From Thermoproteota archaeon (GTDB lineage Archaea; Korarchaeota; Korarchaeia; Korarchaeales; Korarchaeaceae), in contig JAOZGJ010000039.1 of NCBI GenBank assembly GCA_027491785.1, forward strand, positions 1 through 60,069: a stretch of 60,069 nucleotides of DNA, given 5' to 3'. A model generated the notes under the pieces. It did no database searches, had not been told where the DNA came from, and saw nothing but the letters and a program-made list of their open reading frames with translations. Numbering within the stretch: the first letter of the stretch is position 1; the number at the start of each line of letters is the position of its first letter. The position numbers and the translations under genes are program-made. Positions 11,171-22,259 of the stretch are shown piece after piece.

Positions 11171-13216
11171 ATGTGGAGGGCAGGGATCGATATAGGGGGG
11201 ACCTTCACCGATATAGTACTTCTAAATGAAGAGAACGGGGAATTAAAGGTAATTAAAGTTCTAACAACGCCTAAAAATCCAAGTAAAGCTGTTTTTCATG
11301 GACTCAGAGAATCGGGCATAGGGCTCGATGTGATAAGAATGCTGGTGCACGCTACTACCCTAGGTACTAACATGTTCCTAGGTCAAGAGGGCCTTAAACC
11401 ACCCAAAGTCGCTCTAATAACAACAAAAGGGTTTAGGGACGTCATAGAGATAGGGAGACAGCGCAGACCTGAACTCTATAATCTGTTCTTTGAAAAACCA
11501 CCTCCCTTAGTTAAAAGGAGAGATAGATACGAGGTGGAGGAGAGGATAGATGCTTGGGGAAACGTAATCACTCCCTTGGATGAGGAAGGTGCGAAGAAGC
11601 TTGCCAACGATTTATGCAGGAGAGGTTATGATGTAGTGGCTGTGTCCTTCCTTCATAGCTATTTGAACCCATCTCATGAGAGAAAAATGCTCTCAATCCT
11701 GAAGAGGAGATGTCCAAAGCTGGATGTGGTCTTATCCTCTGAGATAAATCCGGAGCATAAGGAATATGAGAGGACCAGCACTACAGTAGTTAACGCGTTC
11801 CTGAGAAAACTTCTATCTGGATATCTAGAAAAACTGAAACAGAATCTAGGAAGGAATAGGTTCAAAGGAGAGCTTATGATAATGCAGAGCAATGGAGGAG
11901 TATCAAAATCGGAGTACGCAATTGAGAGACCAGCAGCTTTCATAGAATCTGGGCCAGCAGCCGGTGCGGTGGCAGTAGCCTATTATTCGAGACTCACTGG
12001 CGATGGTAAAGTCATAGGATTTGACATGGGAGGGACAACAGCTAAAGCTTCCACCATCATTGGAGGGGAGCCGACAGTAACTACTGAGTACGAAGTAGGT
12101 GGGAAAGTGCATGCTGGCAGGCTCGTTAAGGGATCAGGATATCCCGTTAGATTTCCCTTCATAGATCTGGCGGAGGTCAGTGCCGGTGGAGGAACGATAG
12201 CTTGGGTTGATGAGGGAGGTGCCCTCAGAGTAGGGCCTATAAGCGCTGGCGCAGATCCTGGACCCGCTTGCTATGGGAAAGGTGGTGAAAAGGCCACCAT
12301 AACTGATGCAAATTTCCTGCTTGGGAGGCTTGGGAAAAAGCTAGCAGGAGGGAACCTCATACTGAGAGAGGATCTTGCAGCTAGGGCTATTAGGGAGCTA
12401 TCTGACTACCTGGGACTTGAGGCTGAGGAAACCGCTTTAGGGATATTGAAACTTGCCAATACCATTATGGCTAAGGCCCTCAGAATAGTGACTGTTGAAA
12501 GGGGCCAAGATCCTAGGGACTTCGTTATGTACGTATTTGGAGGAGCAGGACCCCTCCATGGAGCATATCTAGCTAAGGAACTTGAAGCTAAAGAGGTGCT
12601 CATACCAATTCATCCGGGGGTTTTCTCGGCATTTGGCCTTCTCCTCACAGATTACAGGGTTGATGAGGCTAGGAGCGTTATGAAGTTAGCGGAAGAACTG
12701 GATGATGATGGGGTAGAGGGTATGATAAGGGAGCTTGAAGCTAGAGCATCGAAAGAGCTAAGAGAGCTTAAGGACGTACTGGTAAACCCCAGTCTCGACA
12801 TGAGATACAAGGGACAGGCTTACGAGCTGAATGTTCCTTGGAAAGGATCGGTCGATCTCGCGATAAGAGACTTCCATGCTACCCACGGCAGGATGTACGG
12901 ATTTTCGTCTCCTGATGAACCCGTTGAGGTAGTCAATGTCAGGGTATCCCTAGTGGGGTCCCTAAGGAAGCCTGCAGTTCCTAGGACTGAGGCTGTAAGG
13001 CATGTACCCGAAGCCGAGGGCAAGCGATCTGTCTACTTCGAGGACATTGGATGGGCAGATACTCTGGTCTATAATAGATCCAAGTTGAAGCCGGGAGCTG
13101 CCTTGAAGGGTCCAGCTGTCGTTGAAGAATATGATTCTACAACGCTAGTACCCCCCGAATACAGCCTGTTAGTTGACGAGTACGGCAATCTCAGGATAGG
13201 ATTGGAGGTGATCTGA
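11171..13216 (+). CDS. hyuA: hydantoinase/oxoprolinase family subunit A
   Basis: 681 residues, the normal size of HyuA. The N-terminal actin-like ATPase motif GIDIGGTFTDIVLL is at residue 5, the second glycine-rich motif GFDMGGTTAKAS near 283, and FGGAGPLHG near 457. ATP-dependent ring opening of hydantoins, oxoproline or acetone-type carboxylation are the known activities; the family is too broad to choose. Its stop and the hyuB ATG overlap by one base, so A and B are made as a complex. Confidence 0.92.
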   Translation: MWRAGIDIGGTFTDIVLLNEENGELKVIKVLTTPKNPSKAVFHGLRESGIGLDVIRMLVHATTLGTNMFLGQEGLKPPKVALITTKGFRDVIEIGRQRRPELYNLFFEKPPPLVKRRDRYEVEERIDAWGNVITPLDEEGAKKLANDLCRRGYDVVAVSFLHSYLNPSHERKMLSILKRRCPKLDVVLSSEINPEHKEYERTSTTVVNAFLRKLLSGYLEKLKQNLGRNRFKGELMIMQSNGGVSKSEYAIERPAAFIESGPAAGAVAVAYYSRLTGDGKVIGFDMGGTTAKASTIIGGEPTVTTEYEVGGKVHAGRLVKGSGYPVRFPFIDLAEVSAGGGTIAWVDEGGALRVGPISAGADPGPACYGKGGEKATITDANFLLGRLGKKLAGGNLILREDLAARAIRELSDYLGLEAEETALGILKLANTIMAKALRIVTVERGQDPRDFVMYVFGGAGPLHGAYLAKELEAKEVLIPIHPGVFSAFGLLLTDYRVDEARSVMKLAEELDDDGVEGMIRELEARASKELRELKDVLVNPSLDMRYKGQAYELNVPWKGSVDLAIRDFHATHGRMYGFSSPDEPVEVVNVRVSLVGSLRKPAVPRTEAVRHVPEAEGKRSVYFEDIGWADTLVYNRSKLKPGAALKGPAVVEEYDSTTLVPPEYSLLVDEYGNLRIGLEVI

Positions 13217-14874
13217 TGGTAGATCCCATCACTGTGGAGGTCATCAAAAGCTCTTCCTCTTATATAGCGGAGGAGATGGGGATAGTACTCAGGAATTCAG
13301 CTTATTCTCCGAACATAAGGGACAGGATGGATCATAGCTGTGCTATTCTCCTTGAGAACGGGGAGCTAATAGCCCAAGCAGAGCATATACCAGTTCATCT
13401 GGGTAGCATGGCCGTAGGCGTCAAGAACACCATAAGCTACCTAAAGAGGATGGCCTTGGCCTTGGAGAAAGGAGATATAATCGTCCTCAACGATCCTTAC
13501 ATAGCTGGTACCCATCTCAATGATGTAACTTTGATAAAACCCCTCTTCCATAACGGTGAGATCTACGGATATGTGGCGAACAAGGCCCATCACGTTGATG
13601 TTGGAGGGATGGTACCAGGGAGCATAAGTGGGAATGCTAGGGAATTGATTCAGGAGGGAATCGTGCTTCCACCCTTGAAGATAGTGAGAGGGGGTCATTT
13701 GGATGAGAACATTCTCAATTTAATTCTCAGCAATGTAAGAGTTCCCAGATATACAAGGGGTGATCTAAAGGCTCAGATAGCGGCCCTCAATGTTGGAGAG
13801 AAGAGGCTATCCGATCTCATAGGCAAATATGGAATAGAAACTGTTATCGAATCTTGGAATAGGATAATAGACTATACAGCGAACTATCTCAAGGAGAAAA
13901 TAAAGGAAGTTCCTCCAGGAACCTATAAGGCTGAAGATTACATGGAAGGGAATGACAGGCTCATAGCGATAAGGGTAAGCATATCTATAGAGCCCGATTC
14001 CATCACAGTGGATTTCTCCGATACGGACGACCAAGTGGATATGCCCATAAACGCTGTTTATGGAGTAACTGTAGCTGCAACGTCCTATGCCATAAAGGCT
14101 GCCCTTGATCCAGATCTCCCCATGAACTACGGTTTCTTCAAGGTGGTTAGCATCAAGACGAGGGAAGGGACCTTGGTTCATCCGAGAAAACCAGCTCCTG
14201 TGGCTGCTGGTAATGTAGAAACGTCCCAAAGAATAGCAGAAACTGTTTTGAAGGCCCTCTCTAATCCACTTGAGGATAGAATACCTGCTGCTTCCCATGG
14301 TAGCATGAACAACGTGATGGTCGGAGGGATACATGAAGGTAGAGGGTGGGCTTTCTATGAGACGATAGGTGGCGGTATGGGAGCTAGGCCGGACAGGGAT
14401 GGTGTAGATGGAGTTCATACTCACATGACCAACACGATGAACACTCCCATAGAGGTGATAGAGAGGGAGTGCCCAGTTCTATTCGTGGAATATAGCCTCA
14501 GAAAGGATTCCGGAGGACCGGGTAAATATAGAGGAGGACTCGGGATAACTAGAGCTTTTAAGATACTCTCAGATAGGGCTACTCTATCCATAGCGACAGA
14601 GAGAGTTAGGTTAAAGCCATGGGGGCTGAAGGGAGGGCTTGACGGGGCAAGTGGCAGACACTACGTGATTCGAGCGAACGGCGAGTTCATTGAATTGAAG
14701 GCTAAGGATACAATGGAACTCAGGAGAGGAGATACGGTCTACATAAACACTCCAGGTGGCGGGGGTTACGGCAGGCCCAGCCTAAGAGATCCTAAACTTG
14801 TAAGGGAGGACTTACTAGATGAGAAGATATCTCCAGAAGCAGCATCAAAATATTATGGAGTGAATTCCCTCTAA
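13216..14874 (+). CDS. hyuB: hydantoinase/oxoprolinase family subunit B
   Basis: 552 residues with the HyuB signature regions: DPITVEVIKSS at the start, NDPYIAGTHLNDVTL near residue 93, NKAHHVDVGG near 120, ASHGSMNNVMVGG near 358 and GGGMGARPDRDG followed by HTHMTNTMNTP near 390. Ends with the typical TPGGGGYGRP. It is the catalytic or partner subunit of the HyuA ATPase. Position opposite the liv operon suggests that the imported substrate is hydrolysed here. Confidence 0.92.
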   Translation: MVDPITVEVIKSSSSYIAEEMGIVLRNSAYSPNIRDRMDHSCAILLENGELIAQAEHIPVHLGSMAVGVKNTISYLKRMALALEKGDIIVLNDPYIAGTHLNDVTLIKPLFHNGEIYGYVANKAHHVDVGGMVPGSISGNARELIQEGIVLPPLKIVRGGHLDENILNLILSNVRVPRYTRGDLKAQIAALNVGEKRLSDLIGKYGIETVIESWNRIIDYTANYLKEKIKEVPPGTYKAEDYMEGNDRLIAIRVSISIEPDSITVDFSDTDDQVDMPINAVYGVTVAATSYAIKAALDPDLPMNYGFFKVVSIKTREGTLVHPRKPAPVAAGNVETSQRIAETVLKALSNPLEDRIPAASHGSMNNVMVGGIHEGRGWAFYETIGGGMGARPDRDGVDGVHTHMTNTMNTPIEVIERECPVLFVEYSLRKDSGGPGKYRGGLGITRAFKILSDRATLSIATERVRLKPWGLKGGLDGASGRHYVIRANGEFIELKAKDTMELRRGDTVYINTPGGGGYGRPSLRDPKLVREDLLDEKISPEAASKYYGVNSL

Positions 14875-15011
14875 TGAGATGGTATAGCGTTACACTGGAC
14901 CTAGGGAAATGCTGTCAATATACTATCATCAATCTAGCCGTTTCAGATATTTTCCTTATACCATAACTTTTTAGAGACATCTCCCTTAAGGTGAAAAGAG
15001 AGGGATGGATT

Positions 15012-15440
15012 ATGCCTTATATGAAGGTAGGAGATCTCCTAAAGGGTTACGGATTCATAAGTATAACACCAGATGAGACTGTGAGAGATGCCGCGAAGGT
15101 CATGGTGTCCAAGGGGATAGGATTCTTAGTAGTTGTGGATTCGTCAGATCCAAGAAAGCTTCTTGGAGTCATCTCTGAAAGGGATGTCATAAGAGCCGTA
15201 GCTAGTAATAAGGAGAACTCCAAGGTAGAAGAGCTTATGACTAGGGAAGTAGTTACAGTAAGAGATACCGATACCCTCTATAAGGCAGCTAAGCTCATGA
15301 AGGAACATAGCATTAGGCACTTGGTTGTGGTGAACGAGGAGGGAATACCTGTAGGAGTGCTCTCAATAAGAGATCTGACCTATGAAGAGGGAGCTCTCAA
15401 GGCTCTCGCTGAAGAAATCGAGAGCGAGTTCTCCCTTTAA
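15012..15440 (+). CDS. tandem CBS-domain protein
   Basis: Two CBS domains fill the whole protein (about residues 3-60 and 68-125), each with the ADRV-like end (GVISERDVIRAVA and GVLSIRDLTYEE). Such stand-alone pairs bind adenine nucleotides or SAM and regulate other proteins. ATG 15012 has GAGGG seven bases upstream; the open frame also reaches a GTG at 14991. A TTATA box near 14956 fits. The last 44 bases overlap, tail to tail, with the tyrosine phosphatase gene. Confidence 0.85.
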   Translation: MPYMKVGDLLKGYGFISITPDETVRDAAKVMVSKGIGFLVVVDSSDPRKLLGVISERDVIRAVASNKENSKVEELMTREVVTVRDTDTLYKAAKLMKEHSIRHLVVVNEEGIPVGVLSIRDLTYEEGALKALAEEIESEFSL

Positions 15441-15891
15441 ACCCGAACTTGAAACTGTAATAGAACCATACGGCATTATACTGCTGCTGGCTCTCTATGG
15501 AGCATGGCCTGATCGATCTCAGTTGCTCGATAGCATCATCCGGCGTCATTCCCTTAGATACTAGATAGGCCGCAAGCACCGTTCCTGTCCTTCCGCAGCC
15601 AGCTAGGCAGTGAACCAAGATCTTCTTACCTTCCTTTATTTTGCTCCATATCAACTCTATTATTTTATCCAATATTTCTATGGGTGGGGCTGCGAATTCC
15701 TCAATCTCGAAGAGATAGTTTTCTATACCCAGCTCTCTCATTCTTTCCCTAACGGGATCGCTTAAGGGAACCAGTGATATGATTACCCTTATTCCTTTCG
15801 TATACAACCAGATGACTTCCTCCTCATCGTAGACGTATGATGAGCCAGCGACATGCTTGTCTACGAAGGAGAAGTTGGATGGTTTCCTCAT
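15397..15891 (-). CDS. dual-specificity/tyrosine protein phosphatase
   Basis: 164 residues with the P-loop HCLAGCGRT (His94, Cys95, Arg101) and a plausible general-acid Asp upstream (near Asp45 in VPLSDP). Similar to the small archaeal Cys-based phosphatases. It follows the MFS-DUF47 gene by ten bases and probably belongs to that operon; its 3' end overlaps the convergent CBS gene by 44 bases. Substrate unknown; a phosphoprotein, phosphoinositide-like or polyphosphate substrate cannot be distinguished. Confidence 0.87.
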   Translation of the reverse strand: MRKPSNFSFVDKHVAGSSYVYDEEEVIWLYTKGIRVIISLVPLSDPVRERMRELGIENYLFEIEEFAAPPIEILDKIIELIWSKIKEGKKILVHCLAGCGRTGTVLAAYLVSKGMTPDDAIEQLRSIRPCSIESQQQYNAVWFYYSFKFGFKGRTRSRFLQREP

Positions 15892-15901
15892 GTAGATCCC
15901 A

Positions 15902-17719
15902 TCACACCGGCCAGGCCATGTGCTTGAAAGCTATGACCCTCAGGACGTCTGAGGCATCTTCAACAGCATCCACCATGTTCTCAGTTAACTCGATAAAATC
16001 TCTCAGATTCAGGAGCGGCATGAGGTCCATTTTCGTATGAAGGAGCTCTTCCATCGCCCTCTGATGTAACTCATCAAATATCGTCTCGATCTCATCTATC
16101 TCGCTTACTGTCTCGAGAGAATCCTCTAAGTCTATCCTAATAAGCTCCACAGCCCTATAAAGTCTATTGGCTATCCATCTCGAAACTTTAGCCATCTCAC
16201 TCATGAGTTTCCTTATGCTCAGAGGAATTGTATCGGGATCCAAGGTCTTAAGCCTCCTAGAAGCACCTAAAGCGAAGCTAGCTACCCTGTCAACCCTACC
16301 GACTAGCCTAGCAAAATCTGCTTTATCCTGCCCGCTTAAACTGCTCAGCCAAAGTTGTCTATCTATGGCTATTTTAAGCTCATCGGCCTGATTTTCATAC
16401 TGCTTGATGAGTCGAAAATTCTTCTGATCCTTCTTTCCCTTAGAATAACTCTCTACCATACTGGAAAAGCTCTCAATGACCTTCAATATAATAGAGGCAT
16501 GTTCAACGACCATATCAAACGCTGGCCAGAAGGGACGTGTTTCCTTCATCAAGAATATTAGGGGAGATCCTAACGCTAGGAGGAGGGAAGTTATAACGAA
16601 CGTTCCACCGAACCCGTAAATCTCACCGATCATTCCCAAGGTTAAGGCCCCGGTTATGTATCCGAAGTCCCTCAATGAAGTGTAAAGCCCTATGGATCTA
16701 CCTCTAACTGCTGGAGGGGCAGCATCAGCTGATATCGCCGGGAGGATGGGATAGTATAGGCCTACTCCAACCCCTAGGAGCACGGAAGCCAAGGCTAAAT
16801 AGAGAGAGTTCTCAAAGGAGTGTATCAAGTATATGCTCAGTGCCTTCAAAGAGAACCCTAAAAATGTGGGGATCCTCCTACCAACAGCGTCAGATATCCT
16901 ACCAGAGAAAGGCATTAAAGAGGCCCATGCAAGGGTATTCAATCCCTGAATGATACCTATTCGAATATTATCTAATCCAATGGAGCTGAGATATATGGGT
17001 AAGAGACCCCAGACAAGGGCATCGGAGAACTGAGCTGCATGCCCGAGGAAGTAAGTCAATCTGAGGGTAGAGCTCCTCAGGCACATTGAGTATGCGTGAA
17101 GTGTGGGAACATCCTCTCTCGCTTCTCCCTTAGTTTCGGAGATTCCGGTGACGGAGAGAACTACAGCTATAGCTGAAGCCACAAGAGTTATGTAAAAGGC
17201 ATCAGGTAAGCTGCTCACTTCAGATACGTAGCCCCCTAGGAAAGCACCTACTGTATATCCACCATATACAGAAGATTCCATTATTCCTAGGCTGAGGCCA
17301 TGTCTCTCCTTCCCTCCAGCCTCTGAGAGTATTATCATTATCCCCGAGTCTATAAGCCCCTGGCTCCATCCCATGAGGAGGAGCGACGCAGCTATCATGA
17401 TGAGATTCACACTGTATATGAGGAGAGCAGTTCCAATGAGAAAGGTGGAGGTTCCCATAATGACTGTAATCTTCCTTCCAAGCCTATCAGCTAAATAACC
17501 AGCTAATAGGTCAGCAAATCCTTTAAATAGACCAAATGAGAGTATAGGCAGGAGAACAATGAACAGATAAGCGAATTCTTGACTTATGAATCCCTTCACG
17601 TATAGGGGAAGTACTACCCTTTGCACGCCCATTCCAGTTCCTATGGAGAGAGCCGTCATAGCAGCAGCGAACATCACTCCGCTTTTAGTTCTCTCCAAAG
17701 GGTTTCCCTCCAGTATCAA
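15902..17719 (-). CDS. MFS transporter fused to C-terminal DUF47/PhoU-like domain
   Basis: Residues 1 to about 395 are a 12-helix major facilitator with the A motif GYLADRLGRKITVI between helices 2 and 3 and a second copy GRISDAVGRRIPTF. Residues about 405-600 are a soluble all-helical domain with the DUF47 (PhoU-related) pattern: YENQADELKIAID, RVDRVASFALGASRRLK, RLYRAVELIRIDLED and LTENMVDAVEDASDVLRVIAF. DUF47 proteins normally sit beside Pit phosphate transporters as separate polypeptides. The fusion to an MFS carrier suggests an oxyanion (phosphate or similar) transporter with built-in control. A TTG start overlaps the TorD-like gene by 4 bases. Confidence 0.8.
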   Translation of the reverse strand: MILEGNPLERTKSGVMFAAAMTALSIGTGMGVQRVVLPLYVKGFISQEFAYLFIVLLPILSFGLFKGFADLLAGYLADRLGRKITVIMGTSTFLIGTALLIYSVNLIMIAASLLLMGWSQGLIDSGIMIILSEAGGKERHGLSLGIMESSVYGGYTVGAFLGGYVSEVSSLPDAFYITLVASAIAVVLSVTGISETKGEAREDVPTLHAYSMCLRSSTLRLTYFLGHAAQFSDALVWGLLPIYLSSIGLDNIRIGIIQGLNTLAWASLMPFSGRISDAVGRRIPTFLGFSLKALSIYLIHSFENSLYLALASVLLGVGVGLYYPILPAISADAAPPAVRGRSIGLYTSLRDFGYITGALTLGMIGEIYGFGGTFVITSLLLALGSPLIFLMKETRPFWPAFDMVVEHASIILKVIESFSSMVESYSKGKKDQKNFRLIKQYENQADELKIAIDRQLWLSSLSGQDKADFARLVGRVDRVASFALGASRRLKTLDPDTIPLSIRKLMSEMAKVSRWIANRLYRAVELIRIDLEDSLETVSEIDEIETIFDELHQRAMEELLHTKMDLMPLLNLRDFIELTENMVDAVEDASDVLRVIAFKHMAWPV

Positions 17720-18270
17720 ACCGTCCTCAGATCCTTCAACTCATTCTCTAAGAACTCCCTTAAGAGAACACAGACCTCTCTATAGAAGGAAATTCTGGAA
17801 TTTTTGATCACACAGTCACAGAACTGGGGAACCCATCGAATAAGGTGATCCTCTATGAAAGATCTGGCCTCCTCAAGGGCCCCCTCCCCTCCTACTAGGT
17901 AAAGGTACTTTAGAACCTCAAGCTCCACCGATATATGCTCTGGAGGCTCTTTGAATTCCTCCGAAACCTCTACACCAAAGGATCTCATCCTGTTCTCCAC
18001 ATCAACCGCGTACTGGGACATGAGCGTTCTATCCTCTGTCCTGTAGACCGACTCATAGGGAGGACAGGGCACTTCCTTACCGAACCTGAAAAGCCTAGTG
18101 TATTCCTGATTCATGATACTCGCATCTTCCATCTCAACCTTAGTTAGGGGGAAGCGATCTTGTATCTTCTCCCAGGATTCCCTCAGCTCAGCTAGCCATT
18201 CCTTAGTAGGTCTGAGGAATGCTAGGATAAAGAAATTAAGTAAATCGACGCTTTCTTGTCGGGTGGACAT
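17716..18270 (-). CDS. TorD/DmsD-family molybdoenzyme chaperone
   Basis: 184 residues, all-helical, with the family pattern YTRLFRFGKEVPCPPYESVYR, then PEHISVELEVLKYL (the usual ExPDHI motif) and HLIRWVPQF (the usual H-L-x-W-x-P-F). TorD-like proteins hold the catalytic subunit of molybdo- or tungsto-reductases during cofactor loading. No such reductase is present in this window, so the chaperone is separated from its client. A TATA-like AATTATTTATTA lies near 18291-18302, about 25 bases before the ATG, so the mRNA is probably leaderless and starts the TorD-MFS-phosphatase operon. Confidence 0.82.
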   Translation of the reverse strand: MSTRQESVDLLNFFILAFLRPTKEWLAELRESWEKIQDRFPLTKVEMEDASIMNQEYTRLFRFGKEVPCPPYESVYRTEDRTLMSQYAVDVENRMRSFGVEVSEEFKEPPEHISVELEVLKYLYLVGGEGALEEARSFIEDHLIRWVPQFCDCVIKNSRISFYREVCVLLREFLENELKDLRTV

Positions 18271-18301
18271 AAGGCTAGGGGCCGCTCAAGCTAATAAATA
18301 A

Positions 18302-18688
18302 TTACCTTACGCACCAGAAGGGTAGATACTTCTCCCCAACACCTTTGAGCTTCCTTAGTTCGCTTTCCATCTTCAAGATGATCCCCGAATCCCCCTCCAC
18401 AAGTCCTATCTCCACACAGGATTCTCCCGCATGGTGGTGGGTTCTAGTAATGAGGCAATCACTGTACTTCTCCAGCACCTTGGAAACTCTTTCTCCACTT
18501 TCCCTTTGTGACACAACGACAAGTATTCCGCGGCATGTATGGTGGGTCATTAAATGGGTTCTATCTTCAATAGCCTCCATGAGGATGTCTTGTATAAGCT
18601 CAGATCTGCTAATACCTAGATGCTTTGAGAGATCATCTATCTTCTCTACTAGTTCCTCTGGGAGAGATATACCGAACCTCCTCTTCAT
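18302..18688 (-). CDS. nikR: NikR-like ribbon-helix-helix metal regulator
   Basis: Residues 1-42 are a ribbon-helix-helix (RFGISLPEELVEKIDDLSKH) and 53-128 an ACT-like metal-binding domain (RGILVVVSQ through EIGLVEGDSG to KYLPFW), the NikR arrangement and size. His85 and Cys91 align with two of the four high-affinity nickel ligands of E. coli NikR, but the positions of His76 and His87 are Leu and Thr here, with extra His84 and His86. The metal may therefore differ. It is the third gene of the metal-transport operon, two bases after the permease, and probably controls the divergent promoter. Confidence 0.82.
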   Translation of the reverse strand: MKRRFGISLPEELVEKIDDLSKHLGISRSELIQDILMEAIEDRTHLMTHHTCRGILVVVSQRESGERVSKVLEKYSDCLITRTHHHAGESCVEIGLVEGDSGIILKMESELRKLKGVGEKYLPFWCVR

Positions 18689-18690
18689 CC

Positions 18691-19494
18691 CTACCTCCTC
18701 ATCAACGATATTATGTAGAATACCAACATAACGATGCCTATGACACCTGAGGGCGCTAGGCCAGTAGCTACGCTCAGTATCAAGCCAATCATCCCTCCAG
18801 CTAAAGAGAGCAGCAACCCTAAAAAGACGGCATTTTTCCCACTTTTAGCTAGAGAGGAGGCTGTTATACCAGGTAAAAGAACCATCACATGCTCTACCAC
18901 GAATCCCACTGCTCTCAACAGTCCTACAGTAGCTATGGCTAGGGAAGCGACCATCATGGCGTCGTATATTGAAACCCTTATACCAGACAGCCTCACGAAA
19001 TCCTTATCAACGCCTATCAATATATGCTCCCGAAGGAAGGGAACTATAAGGAAAAATACTATGACGGAGACTGCTAGCATGAAATAGACATCCTCCCATG
19101 TTACAAGCAGAGGATCCCCTATTATATAGGACCAAACACTAGTTTCCATTGGAAATGCTGTCAAAATATAGTAAAGAGCTATTACAGTGAAGGAGACACT
19201 AATGGAAACGAATATTGCAGTTGCTTCATCTGATCTGACCCCCCTAGATAGGAGAAGGGATACCATTGAGACCAGAGCGAGACTAAAGAGTACGGAACAC
19301 ACCTCAAACGGGCAGCCGATCAGGTTCAATGATATTATGGCGAGAAGAGCTGAAAGTAGAGCCGAATGCGGTAAAGTGCCTGCTAAGAATAAGAGTCTTC
19401 TAGATACTACTACGGGGCTAAGGATCCCATAAACTACGGAAGCTAGACCGACAACTATGACCCATCTAGGATCCATCATAAGCTCAAACGGCAT
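18691..19494 (-). CDS. metal ABC transporter permease (ZnuB/MntB family)
   Basis: Eight or so hydrophobic helices and the family segment FLAGTLPHSALLSALLAI near the N-terminus, with LLPGITASSLAKSGKNAVFLG and LAPSGVIGIVM near the end, as in cluster-9 (Zn/Mn/Fe) permeases. GGTGG inside the end of the ATPase gene lies six bases before ATG 19494, which I take as the start; the frame itself is open to 19524. Either start overlaps the ATPase gene. Adjacent NikR-like regulator suggests Ni or another divalent metal. Confidence 0.88.
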   Translation of the reverse strand: MPFELMMDPRWVIVVGLASVVYGILSPVVVSRRLLFLAGTLPHSALLSALLAIISLNLIGCPFEVCSVLFSLALVSMVSLLLSRGVRSDEATAIFVSISVSFTVIALYYILTAFPMETSVWSYIIGDPLLVTWEDVYFMLAVSVIVFFLIVPFLREHILIGVDKDFVRLSGIRVSIYDAMMVASLAIATVGLLRAVGFVVEHVMVLLPGITASSLAKSGKNAVFLGLLLSLAGGMIGLILSVATGLAPSGVIGIVMLVFYIISLMRR

Positions 19495-20251
19495 ATCCAT
19501 CCACCACGTGGACGCATTTCTCAACTAGGAAGACGCTTCTACCATAGACCTTGCTCAGAAGATCCTCCCTTAGCACTTCCTTTGGGGGACCAAGTGCAGC
19601 TATCCCTCTGTTTACCACCATTAGCATTTTCGCTTTATCTAAAAAGAAGCTAGGGTCGTGGCTGCTTACCAATACTAGCTTATCCTCAGCGAGTTCCTTT
19701 ATCATCTTAACTAAATCCACCCTTCCCATCGGGTCTACCGCTGTCAAGGGCTCGTCCATTATCAGGACAGGGGGGTCCCATACTAGAGATCTGGCTATGA
19801 ATACCCTTTGCCTTTGACCCCCACTAAGCTCAAGGAGGGGCTTCTTCCTTATATCCCATATCCCCACTTGCTCCATTACCTTCCTCACTCTAGTCTTCAT
19901 TTCCCTTGGAAATCTTATTCTGGGAGGTCTTCCCCTAAGCGCGATAGCGGATTCCACTATTTCCATCACATTAATCGGAAAGCTATAGTCTTCAGCTTTG
20001 AACTGAGGAACATAGCCCACTAGCTTACCAGCTTCCTCTGCTTTTCCGGTTACATCTATGCCATTGATAAAGACCTTTCCCTCTACTGGGATGAGTCCCA
20101 ATATCCCCCTGAAGAGTGTGGTTTTCCCAGCTCCATTTGGTCCTATAACAACTATAAGGCTAGGACCTTCTAGCTTAAAGTTTTCCCTTCTAAATACAAC
20201 TTCTTCCCCATAAGAAACTGTCAGATCAGATACTTCTATTGTAGGGGACAT
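19484..20251 (-). CDS. metal ABC transporter ATPase (ZnuC/MntA family)
   Basis: Walker A GPNGAGKTT, Q-loop YVPQFKAED, signature LSGGQRQ, Walker B VLIMDEPLTAVDP and H-loop SSHDP are all present in 255 residues. First gene of the metal-uptake operon (ATPase, permease, NikR-like). Starts at ATG 20251 just downstream of the promoter with two GTGCAC boxes; GGAGATG lies close to the start. Confidence 0.92.
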   Translation of the reverse strand: MSPTIEVSDLTVSYGEEVVFRRENFKLEGPSLIVVIGPNGAGKTTLFRGILGLIPVEGKVFINGIDVTGKAEEAGKLVGYVPQFKAEDYSFPINVMEIVESAIALRGRPPRIRFPREMKTRVRKVMEQVGIWDIRKKPLLELSGGQRQRVFIARSLVWDPPVLIMDEPLTAVDPMGRVDLVKMIKELAEDKLVLVSSHDPSFFLDKAKMLMVVNRGIAALGPPKEVLREDLLSKVYGRSVFLVEKCVHVVDGYAV

Positions 20252-20259
20252 CTCCTATC

Positions 20260-20297
20260 GTGCACAAATTATATCTTATCCTTATAAAGATGTGCAC
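20260..20297. promoter_or_regulatory. divergent metal-transport promoter with paired GTGCAC boxes
   Basis: GTGCACA at 20260-20266 and TGTGCAC at 20291-20297 form a perfect 7-base inverted repeat around a 24-base A/T-rich core; each half contains the self-complementary GTGCAC, with centres 32 bases apart (three helical turns). The core holds TATA-like sequences for both directions (for example TTATAAAG at 20282-20289). This is the shape of a repressor site for a dimer-of-dimers such as NikR, placed where binding would block both promoters. Assignment to the NikR-like protein is inferred. Confidence 0.65.
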
Positions 20298-20310: not shown

Positions 20311-21303
20311 ATGGATGCAAGAGGGTCCCTTCTGCTCATACTCCTGCTTTTGCTATTCCTACTGCTAACGTTACCGATCCCAGCATACGCTAGACCTAGA
20401 GGATTGGTAATAGTAACTACCTTTCCAAACTTGGCTTCAGATGCTAGGCTACTAGCATGTAGCTCAGATAGTATAGAAGCCTTGGTTCCACCTGGAGTAG
20501 ACCCTCATGAGTACGAGCTCAGGCCAAGGGATATCAGCTTACTTTCAAGCGCTGATATAATAGTGTCGACAGCTCACACTCCTTTCGAGAAGATGATTCA
20601 TGATAAGGTGGTTAATGGGGAAATAAGAGCCCATCTTATTGAAATTCCCAGGATTAAAGGAATTATACTTAGGGATAATCCTGTCACGGGGCAGCCCAAT
20701 TACCACATGCCCATATACGATCCTAGGAACTACATGATATTCATAAGTGAACTCAAAAGGATCATGAGCGAGCTGAATCCAGCATGTACCTCAGTATACA
20801 GTAGGAATTATGGGAGAATAGAGGAAAAAATTGAGGAGATTATTGAAAAAACGCCTAAGATGAATGTAACAGCTATAGCGGTCACACCTGTCGCTCAATA
20901 TGCGGTGGAGTGGATGGGCGTCAAGGTGAAATATCTGCTCCTTAAGGATGTGGGCGTCCCTGCAACCCCTCCTGAGCTGATGGAAATGAGGAGAGAGGCC
21001 ATGCTTGGAGGGATCGACATAATGATACTTGTGGGTAACAGCAAGACCCAGCTTAATATAAAGGCCGAGGAATTGGCAAGAGAATCTGGTATTCCTTCTA
21101 TAACAATACCTTCTCCCCTTGAGAGCAGGAGCATTCCAGATAAGCTTTTGGACGTTGTAAATGACTTCTCTAACATTAATGAAACAAGCTGGAGAGGGAG
21201 AGAGGAGATCAGATACAGCATCGTCCCACTTGCGGTATCATTTCTAATCGCAATACTCTCCCTCTGGGGCATTGCATATATATTAATGAACCAAGAGAAG
21301 TGA
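20311..21303 (+). CDS. metal ABC transporter substrate-binding protein (ZnuA-like), C-terminally anchored
   Basis: Signal peptide (LLLILLLLLFLLLTLPIPAYA), then the cluster-9 binding fold: LVPPGVDPHEYELRPRD supplies the first ligand His, TAHTPFEKM and the NYHMPIYDPRN segment supply further candidate His/Asp ligands, and the long interlobe helix follows near ELKRIMSELNP. No His-rich loop is present. A C-terminal transmembrane helix (about 305-325) anchors it to the membrane, as is common in archaea. Transcribed divergently from ATPase, permease and NikR-like genes across the GTGCAC promoter. Confidence 0.87.
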   Translation: MDARGSLLLILLLLLFLLLTLPIPAYARPRGLVIVTTFPNLASDARLLACSSDSIEALVPPGVDPHEYELRPRDISLLSSADIIVSTAHTPFEKMIHDKVVNGEIRAHLIEIPRIKGIILRDNPVTGQPNYHMPIYDPRNYMIFISELKRIMSELNPACTSVYSRNYGRIEEKIEEIIEKTPKMNVTAIAVTPVAQYAVEWMGVKVKYLLLKDVGVPATPPELMEMRREAMLGGIDIMILVGNSKTQLNIKAEELARESGIPSITIPSPLESRSIPDKLLDVVNDFSNINETSWRGREEIRYSIVPLAVSFLIAILSLWGIAYILMNQEK

Positions 21304-21397: not shown

Positions 21398-21646
21398 ATG
21401 AGCGAGTGGGCCAGGAGAGCTCATCACTACCTCAACGTAACGGGTAGATTTAGAGGATTCAAGAATCTGAGTGAGGGACAGAAGTACCAGATTGTTAAAG
21501 AGGGCCTGATCGAATTCCTTAAGCTGAATCCGATATCTAAGGAAGAGGCAGAGGAGGCACTGGAATGGTTTCTATCGAGGAAAAAGGTTCATGAAGCTAG
21601 GGCTTTAGCTAAGATAATGAAGCTCAAGATAGGTAGGAGGAAGTAG
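21398..21646 (+). CDS. small basic protein, unknown
   Basis: 82 residues, helical, with a basic C-terminal tail (AKIMKLKIGRRK). I do not recognise a family. The reading frame looks coding and a TTATAA-type box near 21368-21373 places transcription start at about the ATG, so it would be leaderless. Its last 23 bases overlap the convergent pcp gene. The basic tail could mean nucleic-acid binding, but this is only a guess. Confidence 0.5.
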   Translation: MSEWARRAHHYLNVTGRFRGFKNLSEGQKYQIVKEGLIEFLKLNPISKEEAEEALEWFLSRKKVHEARALAKIMKLKIGRRK

Positions 21647-22259
21647 CCTCCCTAATTATATTGAGCGCTATCTCTATGGCCCTCTTCAAGGTGAGCATAG
21701 GAAGGCTAGGTACTGGCTTTCTTATCCTAGAAGCCATCTCTGATGAATAGGGAACGTGAATGAAACCAGATATGGCCTTTAAACCCAATCTATCCACGGT
21801 TCTCAGGCTTTTATACATCACATAGTTGCATAGGTAGGTTCCAGCTGAATAGGAGAGAAAAGCAGGGATGCCTGCAGATCTCATTGCTTCGACTATTTTC
21901 CTCGTAGGAATCGTTGCCATATAGGCTAATGGACCATCCTCTTCTATGGGCTCATCAACGGGCTTCATACCATTGTTATCTGGGATCACAGCATCTACGA
22001 TGTTTACCGCTATTCTCTCAACCTTTATTACTGGCCTTTCTGGTGCGAGTCCCAAGTTCAGGATGGCAGTAGGCTCATGCTCCCTTATCAGCTCCTCTAT
22101 GATATGGCCTGCCTTTGAGAAAGATACTGGAAGAACCTCACCTATTATATCTCCACCCTCTAGCTCCCTCACAATCCTGCCTGTCGGGTTCTCTTGGATA
22201 TCTCCCCATCGCTCAAATCCCGTTAGTAGTATCAAGTGCGCTCCCTCGGGTCTCACCAA
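21624..22259 (-). CDS. pcp: pyrrolidone-carboxylate (pyroglutamyl) peptidase
   Basis: 211 residues with the complete C15 catalytic triad at the classical positions: Glu81 (KVERIAVN), Cys144 (SAGTYLCNYVMY) and His168 (GFIHVPY). TGFERWGDIQENPT at the start is also typical. It removes N-terminal pyroglutamate from peptides in the cytoplasm. It overlaps the aldo-keto reductase gene by 7 bases and so is probably cotranscribed with it. Confidence 0.95.
   Translation of the reverse strand: MVRPEGAHLILLTGFERWGDIQENPTGRIVRELEGGDIIGEVLPVSFSKAGHIIEELIREHEPTAILNLGLAPERPVIKVERIAVNIVDAVIPDNNGMKPVDEPIEEDGPLAYMATIPTRKIVEAMRSAGIPAFLSYSAGTYLCNYVMYKSLRTVDRLGLKAISGFIHVPYSSEMASRIRKPVPSLPMLTLKRAIEIALNIIREATSSYLS

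Follow-up and report, generated by a model that had tools for sequence, protein, structure and literature searches.

An archaeal major facilitator carrier with a built-in DUF47 domain and its gene neighbourhood in the Korarchaeaceae

What does a transport protein do that carries a PhoU-like domain of its own, and does it work together with the genes beside it? The question is raised by contig JAOZGJ010000039.1 of a Thermoproteota archaeon of the family Korarchaeaceae (assembly GCA_027491785.1, 1.79 Mb), of which we analysed a stretch of 60,069 nucleotides, here called the window. An initial annotation of this DNA described genes for a TorD chaperone, for a carrier of the major facilitator superfamily (MFS) with a DUF47 domain at its C-terminus, and for a cysteine-based phosphatase, and proposed that the three belong together. 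Three adjoining open reading frames (ORFs) were found on the minus strand as described, torD and the carrier gene overlapping by 4 bases (17716-17719) and the carrier and phosphatase genes being separated by 10 bases (15892-15901). The features concerned are the following:

17716-18270, minus strand: torD, TorD/DmsD/NarJ-family chaperone (Pfam Nitrate_red_del, PF02613, and matches to solved proteins)
15902-17719, minus strand: MFS-DUF47 (PhoU_div) carrier, 605 aa, TTG start (Pfam, homologues, model)
15929-16552, minus strand: DUF47 (PhoU-like) domain of the carrier, residues 390-597, with E442/D446, E545/D549 and E580/D584 (Pfam, alignments)
15397-15891, minus strand: dual-specificity/tyrosine phosphatase, HC(X)5R at residues 94-101 (Pfam and motif)

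Domain make-up and spread of the MFS-DUF47 fusion

In the Pfam search, the carrier matched MFS_1 (6.9e-40), with MFS matches reaching residue 394, and PhoU_div (DUF47, PF01865; 7.5e-19) at residues 390-597. The latter match scored 68.4 bits against a curated cut-off of 24.4 and covered profile positions 3-212 of 214, so the proposal that the C-terminal 200 residues are DUF47/PhoU_div was confirmed by profile search. It also held against solved structures, as this part profile-matched the PhoU-like proteins 3l39 (6.8e-14) and 2iiu (2.7e-9). Fifteen homologues align across both domains. The AlphaFold model of the carrier had a mean pLDDT of 88.1 and a pTM of 0.77, and NorA, VMAT2 and OxlT are among the best hits that Foldseek gave for it; by profile, the carrier part is nearest to NorA and YajR. 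By its MFS_1 match and its fold, the carrier belongs to the MFS.

Filtering by length and coverage left 35 fusions, and the alignment was made from the 32 distinct sequences among them. In the DUF47 part, E442, D446, E545 and D549 are invariant, both in these 32/32 fused domains and in 20/20 hand-picked stand-alone DUF47 domains. In the carrier part, R34, E148, Y152, Y322, Y323, D332 and D351 are present in 32/32 fusions and D233 in 31/32. Residues E222 and D307 of NorA, which we take to be its proton-coupling acids, align by eye with W237 and G320; because of these replacements the coupling site of the carrier differs from that of NorA, and by this alignment the coupling acids of a NorA-type drug:H+ antiporter are not kept. 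Among seven aligned relatives that consist of the MFS part only, two (G367 and G169) keep R34, K66, E148, Y152, D233, R350 and D351, and the other five keep some of these at most. DUF47 was probably added to a pre-existing kind of carrier. The same trio of an MBL-fold hydrolase, a TrmB-type regulator and an MFS carrier is found in two genomes (L165, 6825-9585; L170, 3850-6812), and these carriers share the charged set of MFS-DUF47. A urocanase gene lies directly downstream of one Asgard MFS-DUF47 gene (L142, 2325-6381), and in L165 the MFS-only relative also has one in its vicinity.

The carrier was found in 9/16 genomes of the genus, the window's own included, and in 6/8 other genomes of the family (E <= 1e-20), a result that a profile search repeated. 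In the Asgard phylum, 36/227 genomes matched the carrier at E <= 1e-40, and 32 of these matches reach at least profile position 548 of 593, near the end of DUF47; the partial matches end at 443-456, inside DUF47 (G421, G423 and G426), or at 283, at a contig edge (G360). For G391 and G139 the phylum was taken as Asgard, the G139 locus being identical to that of Candidatus Baldrarchaeum yapensis. A contig scan with two narrow peptide patterns recovered 18 fusion loci; they belong to Korarchaeia or to records carrying the label Baldrarchaeota, Odinarchaeota or Thermofilaceae. The search for this domain pair in archaea, which the initial annotation had suggested, recovered it in Korarchaeia and Asgard archaea.

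In an unrooted DUF47 tree, in which several rows have long branches, a single branch separated the 32 fused from the 20 stand-alone domains (support 98/94; present in 96% of 200 bootstrap trees). Because the fused and stand-alone domains fall on two sides of one branch, a single origin of the fusion is possible; the tree is compatible with it, and it would be the simplest reading. The spread in Korarchaeia and Asgard archaea suggests that the fusion is an old invention. No description of it was found among the titles and abstract openings listed in searches of the open PMC literature. The MFS-DUF47 fusion is thus real and widespread in two archaeal groups, and the carrier is the novel part of the locus.

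Gene order of torD, the phosphatase and the metal-uptake genes

The torD product matched Nitrate_red_del (3.3e-29; 102.1 bits against a cut-off of 22.2) as well as solved DmsD and TorA-chaperone proteins. The phosphatase matched PTP-SAK (7.5e-16) and DSPc (5.7e-14; 52.5 bits against 33.5) and has solved PTP relatives; its active-site sequence is HCLAGCGRTG, and HC(X)5R is kept in 10/10 phosphatase homologues of the locus. Where dN/dS was computable, it was 0.05-0.08 for torD, except for 0.36 in one very close pair, and 0.07-0.15 for the phosphatase. Upstream of torD, the same strand carries three further genes that were absent from the initial annotation (a NikR-like regulator, an ABC-3 permease and an ABC ATPase), and this part of the window reads as follows:

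18271-18301, minus strand: 31-base gap between the regulator and torD; a TATA-like stretch lies some 27 bases ahead of torD (inspection only)
18302-18688, minus strand: NikR-like ribbon-helix-helix (RHH) regulator (Pfam; below NikR equivalog cut-offs)
18691-19524, minus strand: ABC-3 metal-type permease (PF00950, 6.6e-28; weak matches to zinc and other metal permeases)
19484-20251, minus strand: ABC ATPase of the same transporter (Pfam; best model MntA, below the MntA cut-off)
20260-20297, plus strand: GTGCAC-N26-GTGCAC, candidate operator around a TATA-like element (motif search across genomes)
20311-21303, plus strand: ZnuA-type metal-binding protein, divergent from the ABC genes (PF01297, 1.4e-18)

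At the other end of the trio, the phosphatase gene and a convergent CBS-domain gene (14991-15440) overlap at their ends. Farther out lie hydantoinase/oxoprolinase A and B genes (11171-14874) and, about 7 kb off, a pyroglutamyl peptidase gene (21624-22259), which together possibly make up a pyroglutamate route.

Across the genus, the trio stands together in six of the nine carrier-bearing genomes, and the phosphatase adjoins the carrier in all nine. torD adjoins the carrier in G000, G004, G008, G009 and G015; the torD of G001 (one of the six) is broken into two ORFs, and G002, G006 and G007 gave no match; it is, in sum, missing or split in 4/9. In G003 (L050, 8552-8984) a remnant of the carrier, its DUF47 part containing stops, lies between open torD and phosphatase genes. 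The phosphatase gene directly follows the NikR-like gene, with no carrier, in five of the seven genus genomes that lack an intact carrier (G005, G010, G011, G012 and G013); the remaining two are G003, with its remnant, and G014 (70% complete), with no phosphatase match. Some of these gene orders come from a simple ORF caller, which places starts too far upstream and failed to call the ABC ATPase at several loci, among them G011, where the start of the ATPase gene is visible in the sequence. Outside the genus, G018, G019, G020 and G022 have a phosphatase homologue (40-47% identical) away from the carrier. Since its homologues occur with the NikR-like gene or away from the carrier, the phosphatase has no fixed association with the carrier. 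One of 12 branches is starred in the phosphatase tree, which leaves a gain of the carrier at this locus indistinguishable from its loss. In the carrier neighbourhoods fetched from other lineages and searched by BLAST, neither torD nor this phosphatase was found beside the carrier, and 20 annotated carrier neighbours outside the genus showed no constant neighbour and no common theme.

The expectation that the three genes would be neighbours in relatives was thus borne out within part of one genus, but not in the neighbourhoods from other lineages. It is very improbable, in our judgement, that the three genes make up a single system dealing with a respiratory oxyanion, molybdate or tungstate. 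The short overlaps between adjacent genes in several genus genomes speak for such a system, and so does a PF00384 (molybdopterin) protein of about 1,210 aa that occurs in 6/7 genomes with this torD against 1/9 others (Fisher p 0.009, relatedness not controlled); it is formate-dehydrogenase-like in the window's genome and was judged elsewhere by length alone. The exceptions to this pairing are G009, with torD only, and G002, with the enzyme only, and G001 is counted among the seven although its torD is split. The co-occurrence of torD and a molybdoreductase, which the initial annotation had proposed to check, therefore appears in the counts, but the link could stem from the relatedness of the genomes alone. 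Moreover, the carrier does without torD in three genomes and with a split torD in a fourth, torD and the phosphatase flank a mere carrier remnant in G003, and five genomes keep the phosphatase with ABC and NikR-like genes and no carrier. The proposal of one oxyanion system was not borne out; the three genes show a real gene order in part of one genus, yet they are probably not one system.

torD itself resembles the TorD/DmsD chaperones in its family match and its solved relatives, and differs from them in that no molybdoenzyme gene lies on its contig. None of the four PF00384 matches of the genome is on the window's contig, as the initial annotation had said for the vicinity; a client enzyme encoded beside torD is usual, not obligatory. 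The torD paralogues of G004, G008, G016, G027 and G028 each have a PF00384 gene on their contig; the second torD copy of the window's genome, on contig C58, has none there but lies at the contig end. Elsewhere in the window's genome (L103, 1818-5251), formylmethanofuran dehydrogenase subunit B and an FwdD-like part stand in one frame, adjoined by an amidohydrolase gene. By inspection, a stretch similar to the TATA-like one before torD is seen in the other genomes with torD, and it is possible that torD has its own, leaderless promoter.

The metal-uptake genes have a candidate operator of their own. GTGCAC-N26-GTGCAC was found in 14/16 genus genomes, at 15 sites, with a TATA-like stretch between the copies; none was found in G007 (78% complete) or G014 (70% complete). 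By position, 15/15 sites are at the start of the ABC genes, of the binding-protein gene or of both, and in G002, where the two halves lie on separate contigs, each has its own site. In the window, 0.01 occurrences of even a looser form (N20-32) are expected by chance. Outside the genus, the site occurs in 3/25 genomes: that of G035 belongs to an ABC/binding-protein locus where a NikR-like gene is also found, and those of G016 and G020 may arise by chance, as a backward-read control matched in 3/41 genomes. No operator for the carrier itself was seen in the DNA preceding the carrier gene in G002, G006 and G007. The regulator matches RHH and the NikR C-terminal domain, a likeness to NikR, and differs in falling below the equivalog cut-offs (44.1 bits against 105 for PRK04460 of NCBIfam). 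Among H76, H87, H89 and C95 (E. coli numbering), which we take to be the nickel ligands of NikR, only H89 and C95 seem kept, by eye and without an aligned E. coli sequence. Gene order suggests that GTGCAC-N26-GTGCAC is the probable site of the NikR-like protein, which would then regulate these genes. Known NikR sites, by contrast, are inverted repeats with a spacer of N13/14 (PMC545781, in excerpt).

What the fusion may carry

Considering these results, we have proposed a model in which the locus would be a mosaic of two units. The first would be a metal-uptake operon (ABC ATPase, permease and NikR-like sensor, with the phosphatase at the end in sister genomes) together with the divergent binding-protein gene, probably controlled at GTGCAC-N26-GTGCAC. 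The second would be MFS-DUF47, here with torD in front, situated between sensor and phosphatase. MFS-DUF47 would be an ion-coupled carrier of phosphate or of a metal-phosphate complex, and its cytosolic DUF47 would bind metal and phosphate through the E/D clusters, opening or shutting the carrier, so that one chain would do what PitR does beside Pit; torD would serve a molybdoenzyme encoded elsewhere. We favour this reading, in which DUF47 gates the transport of phosphate or metal-phosphate by the chain that it belongs to, only tentatively: the domain make-up, the gene orders in relatives, the invariant residues and the tree are observations, and substrate, direction and gating are inferred.

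The argument for phosphate comes from the partners of related regulators. Each PhoU clade is tightly linked to one carrier family, and among 926 bacterial genomes PitA is present in 97.8% of those with PitR (PMC13170248, in excerpt); by this analogy, DUF47 fused to an MFS carrier points to phosphate. PiT was found in 0/16 genus genomes, and G008 (96% complete) has the carrier and neither PiT nor PstC above cut-off. The initial annotation had suggested a carrier for phosphate, molybdate, tungstate or a respiratory oxyanion under control of its own DUF47. A self-regulated anion carrier stays the leading guess, but the annotated neighbours hold no pointer to molybdate, tungstate or another oxyanion, a genome-wide search for such transport genes not having been made.

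Several observations weigh against a phosphate carrier. PiT occurs in 27/36 Asgard genomes with the fusion against 150/191 without it (Fisher p 0.66), and PstC is above cut-off in 13/16 genus genomes. The nearest relatives of the carrier part, NorA and YajR by profile and NorA, VMAT2 and OxlT by fold, include no phosphate carrier; the two MFS-only relatives with the charged set have an MBL-fold hydrolase and a TrmB regulator beside them instead of phosphate genes, and the neighbours of the MFS-only relatives give no clear substrate pointer; and in G002 the carrier and the metal operon are on different contigs. Two wider roles were considered and rejected: that of a general PiT replacement, as Asgard PiT does not avoid the fusion, and that of the sole phosphate route in the 13 genomes with PstC.

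Other substrates must be weighed on the same evidence. The drug-antiporter-like relatives of the carrier part would fit an organic compound, with DUF47 reporting the energy or phosphate state, and this could also be read from the MBL-fold hydrolase and TrmB regulator beside the two MFS-only relatives and from the urocanase genes adjoining one fusion and near one MFS-only relative. We consider it unlikely, as the presumed coupling acids of NorA are not kept and the neighbours vary across lineages. A divalent-metal carrier, or a relief valve of the metal regulon, whose DUF47 senses metal, appears about as unlikely: it would agree with the gene order in the window's group, where the carrier gene comes downstream of those for a metal ABC transporter and a NikR-like sensor, with the acidic clusters of DUF47 and with the conserved acids E148, D233 and D351 within predicted helices of the carrier part, but the carrier and the two operator copies of G002 are on three different contigs, the 20 annotated neighbours outside the genus include no metal transporter (that of L070 is a LysE-type translocator), and the TATA-like stretch before torD suggests separate transcription.

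Relation to known systems and significance

YajR (3wdo), an MFS protein with a C-terminal cytosolic domain of ferredoxin-like fold, is one of the proteins that the carrier part matches best by profile. SPX is a eukaryotic domain of a different family from DUF47 and stands at the N-terminus. An MFS carrier fused to a phosphate-related domain is a likeness to the plant SPX-MFS/PHT5 vacuolar phosphate transporters (PMC4821872, in excerpt). As the initial annotation stated, DUF47 is usually a separate protein beside Pit, and in archaea it is encoded beside pit (excerpts of PMC13170248 and, for archaea, PMC9239043). PitR with PitA resembles the present case in that a DUF47 regulator is tied to a carrier (PMC13170248); it differs in that PitR is a separate gene beside pitA, whereas here DUF47 is fused to an MFS carrier in a genus in which PiT was not found. 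NptA also has a carrier and a C-terminal PhoU-like domain in one chain (PMC13170248), but it is a sodium-phosphate transporter and not an MFS protein, and its domain is PhoU-like, not DUF47.

PhoU-like regulators are thus known with Pst, Pit and NptA (PMC13170248). With more doubt than for the phosphate reading itself, MFS-DUF47 might be a fourth kind of phosphate carrier with such a regulator, after Pst/PhoU, Pit/PitR and NptA-PhoU: an old archaeal one, common to Korarchaeia and Asgard archaea, partner-free and self-sensing for phosphate or metal-phosphate. The NikR-like regulator and GTGCAC-N26-GTGCAC define a candidate metal regulon of archaea, and one genome outside the phylum, G035, has a similar arrangement. 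An MFS carrier with DUF47 in its own chain would extend the reach of this sensor to one more, unrelated carrier fold, and with sensor and carrier joined in this way, PhoU-type gating would be directly testable by cutting near residue 400.

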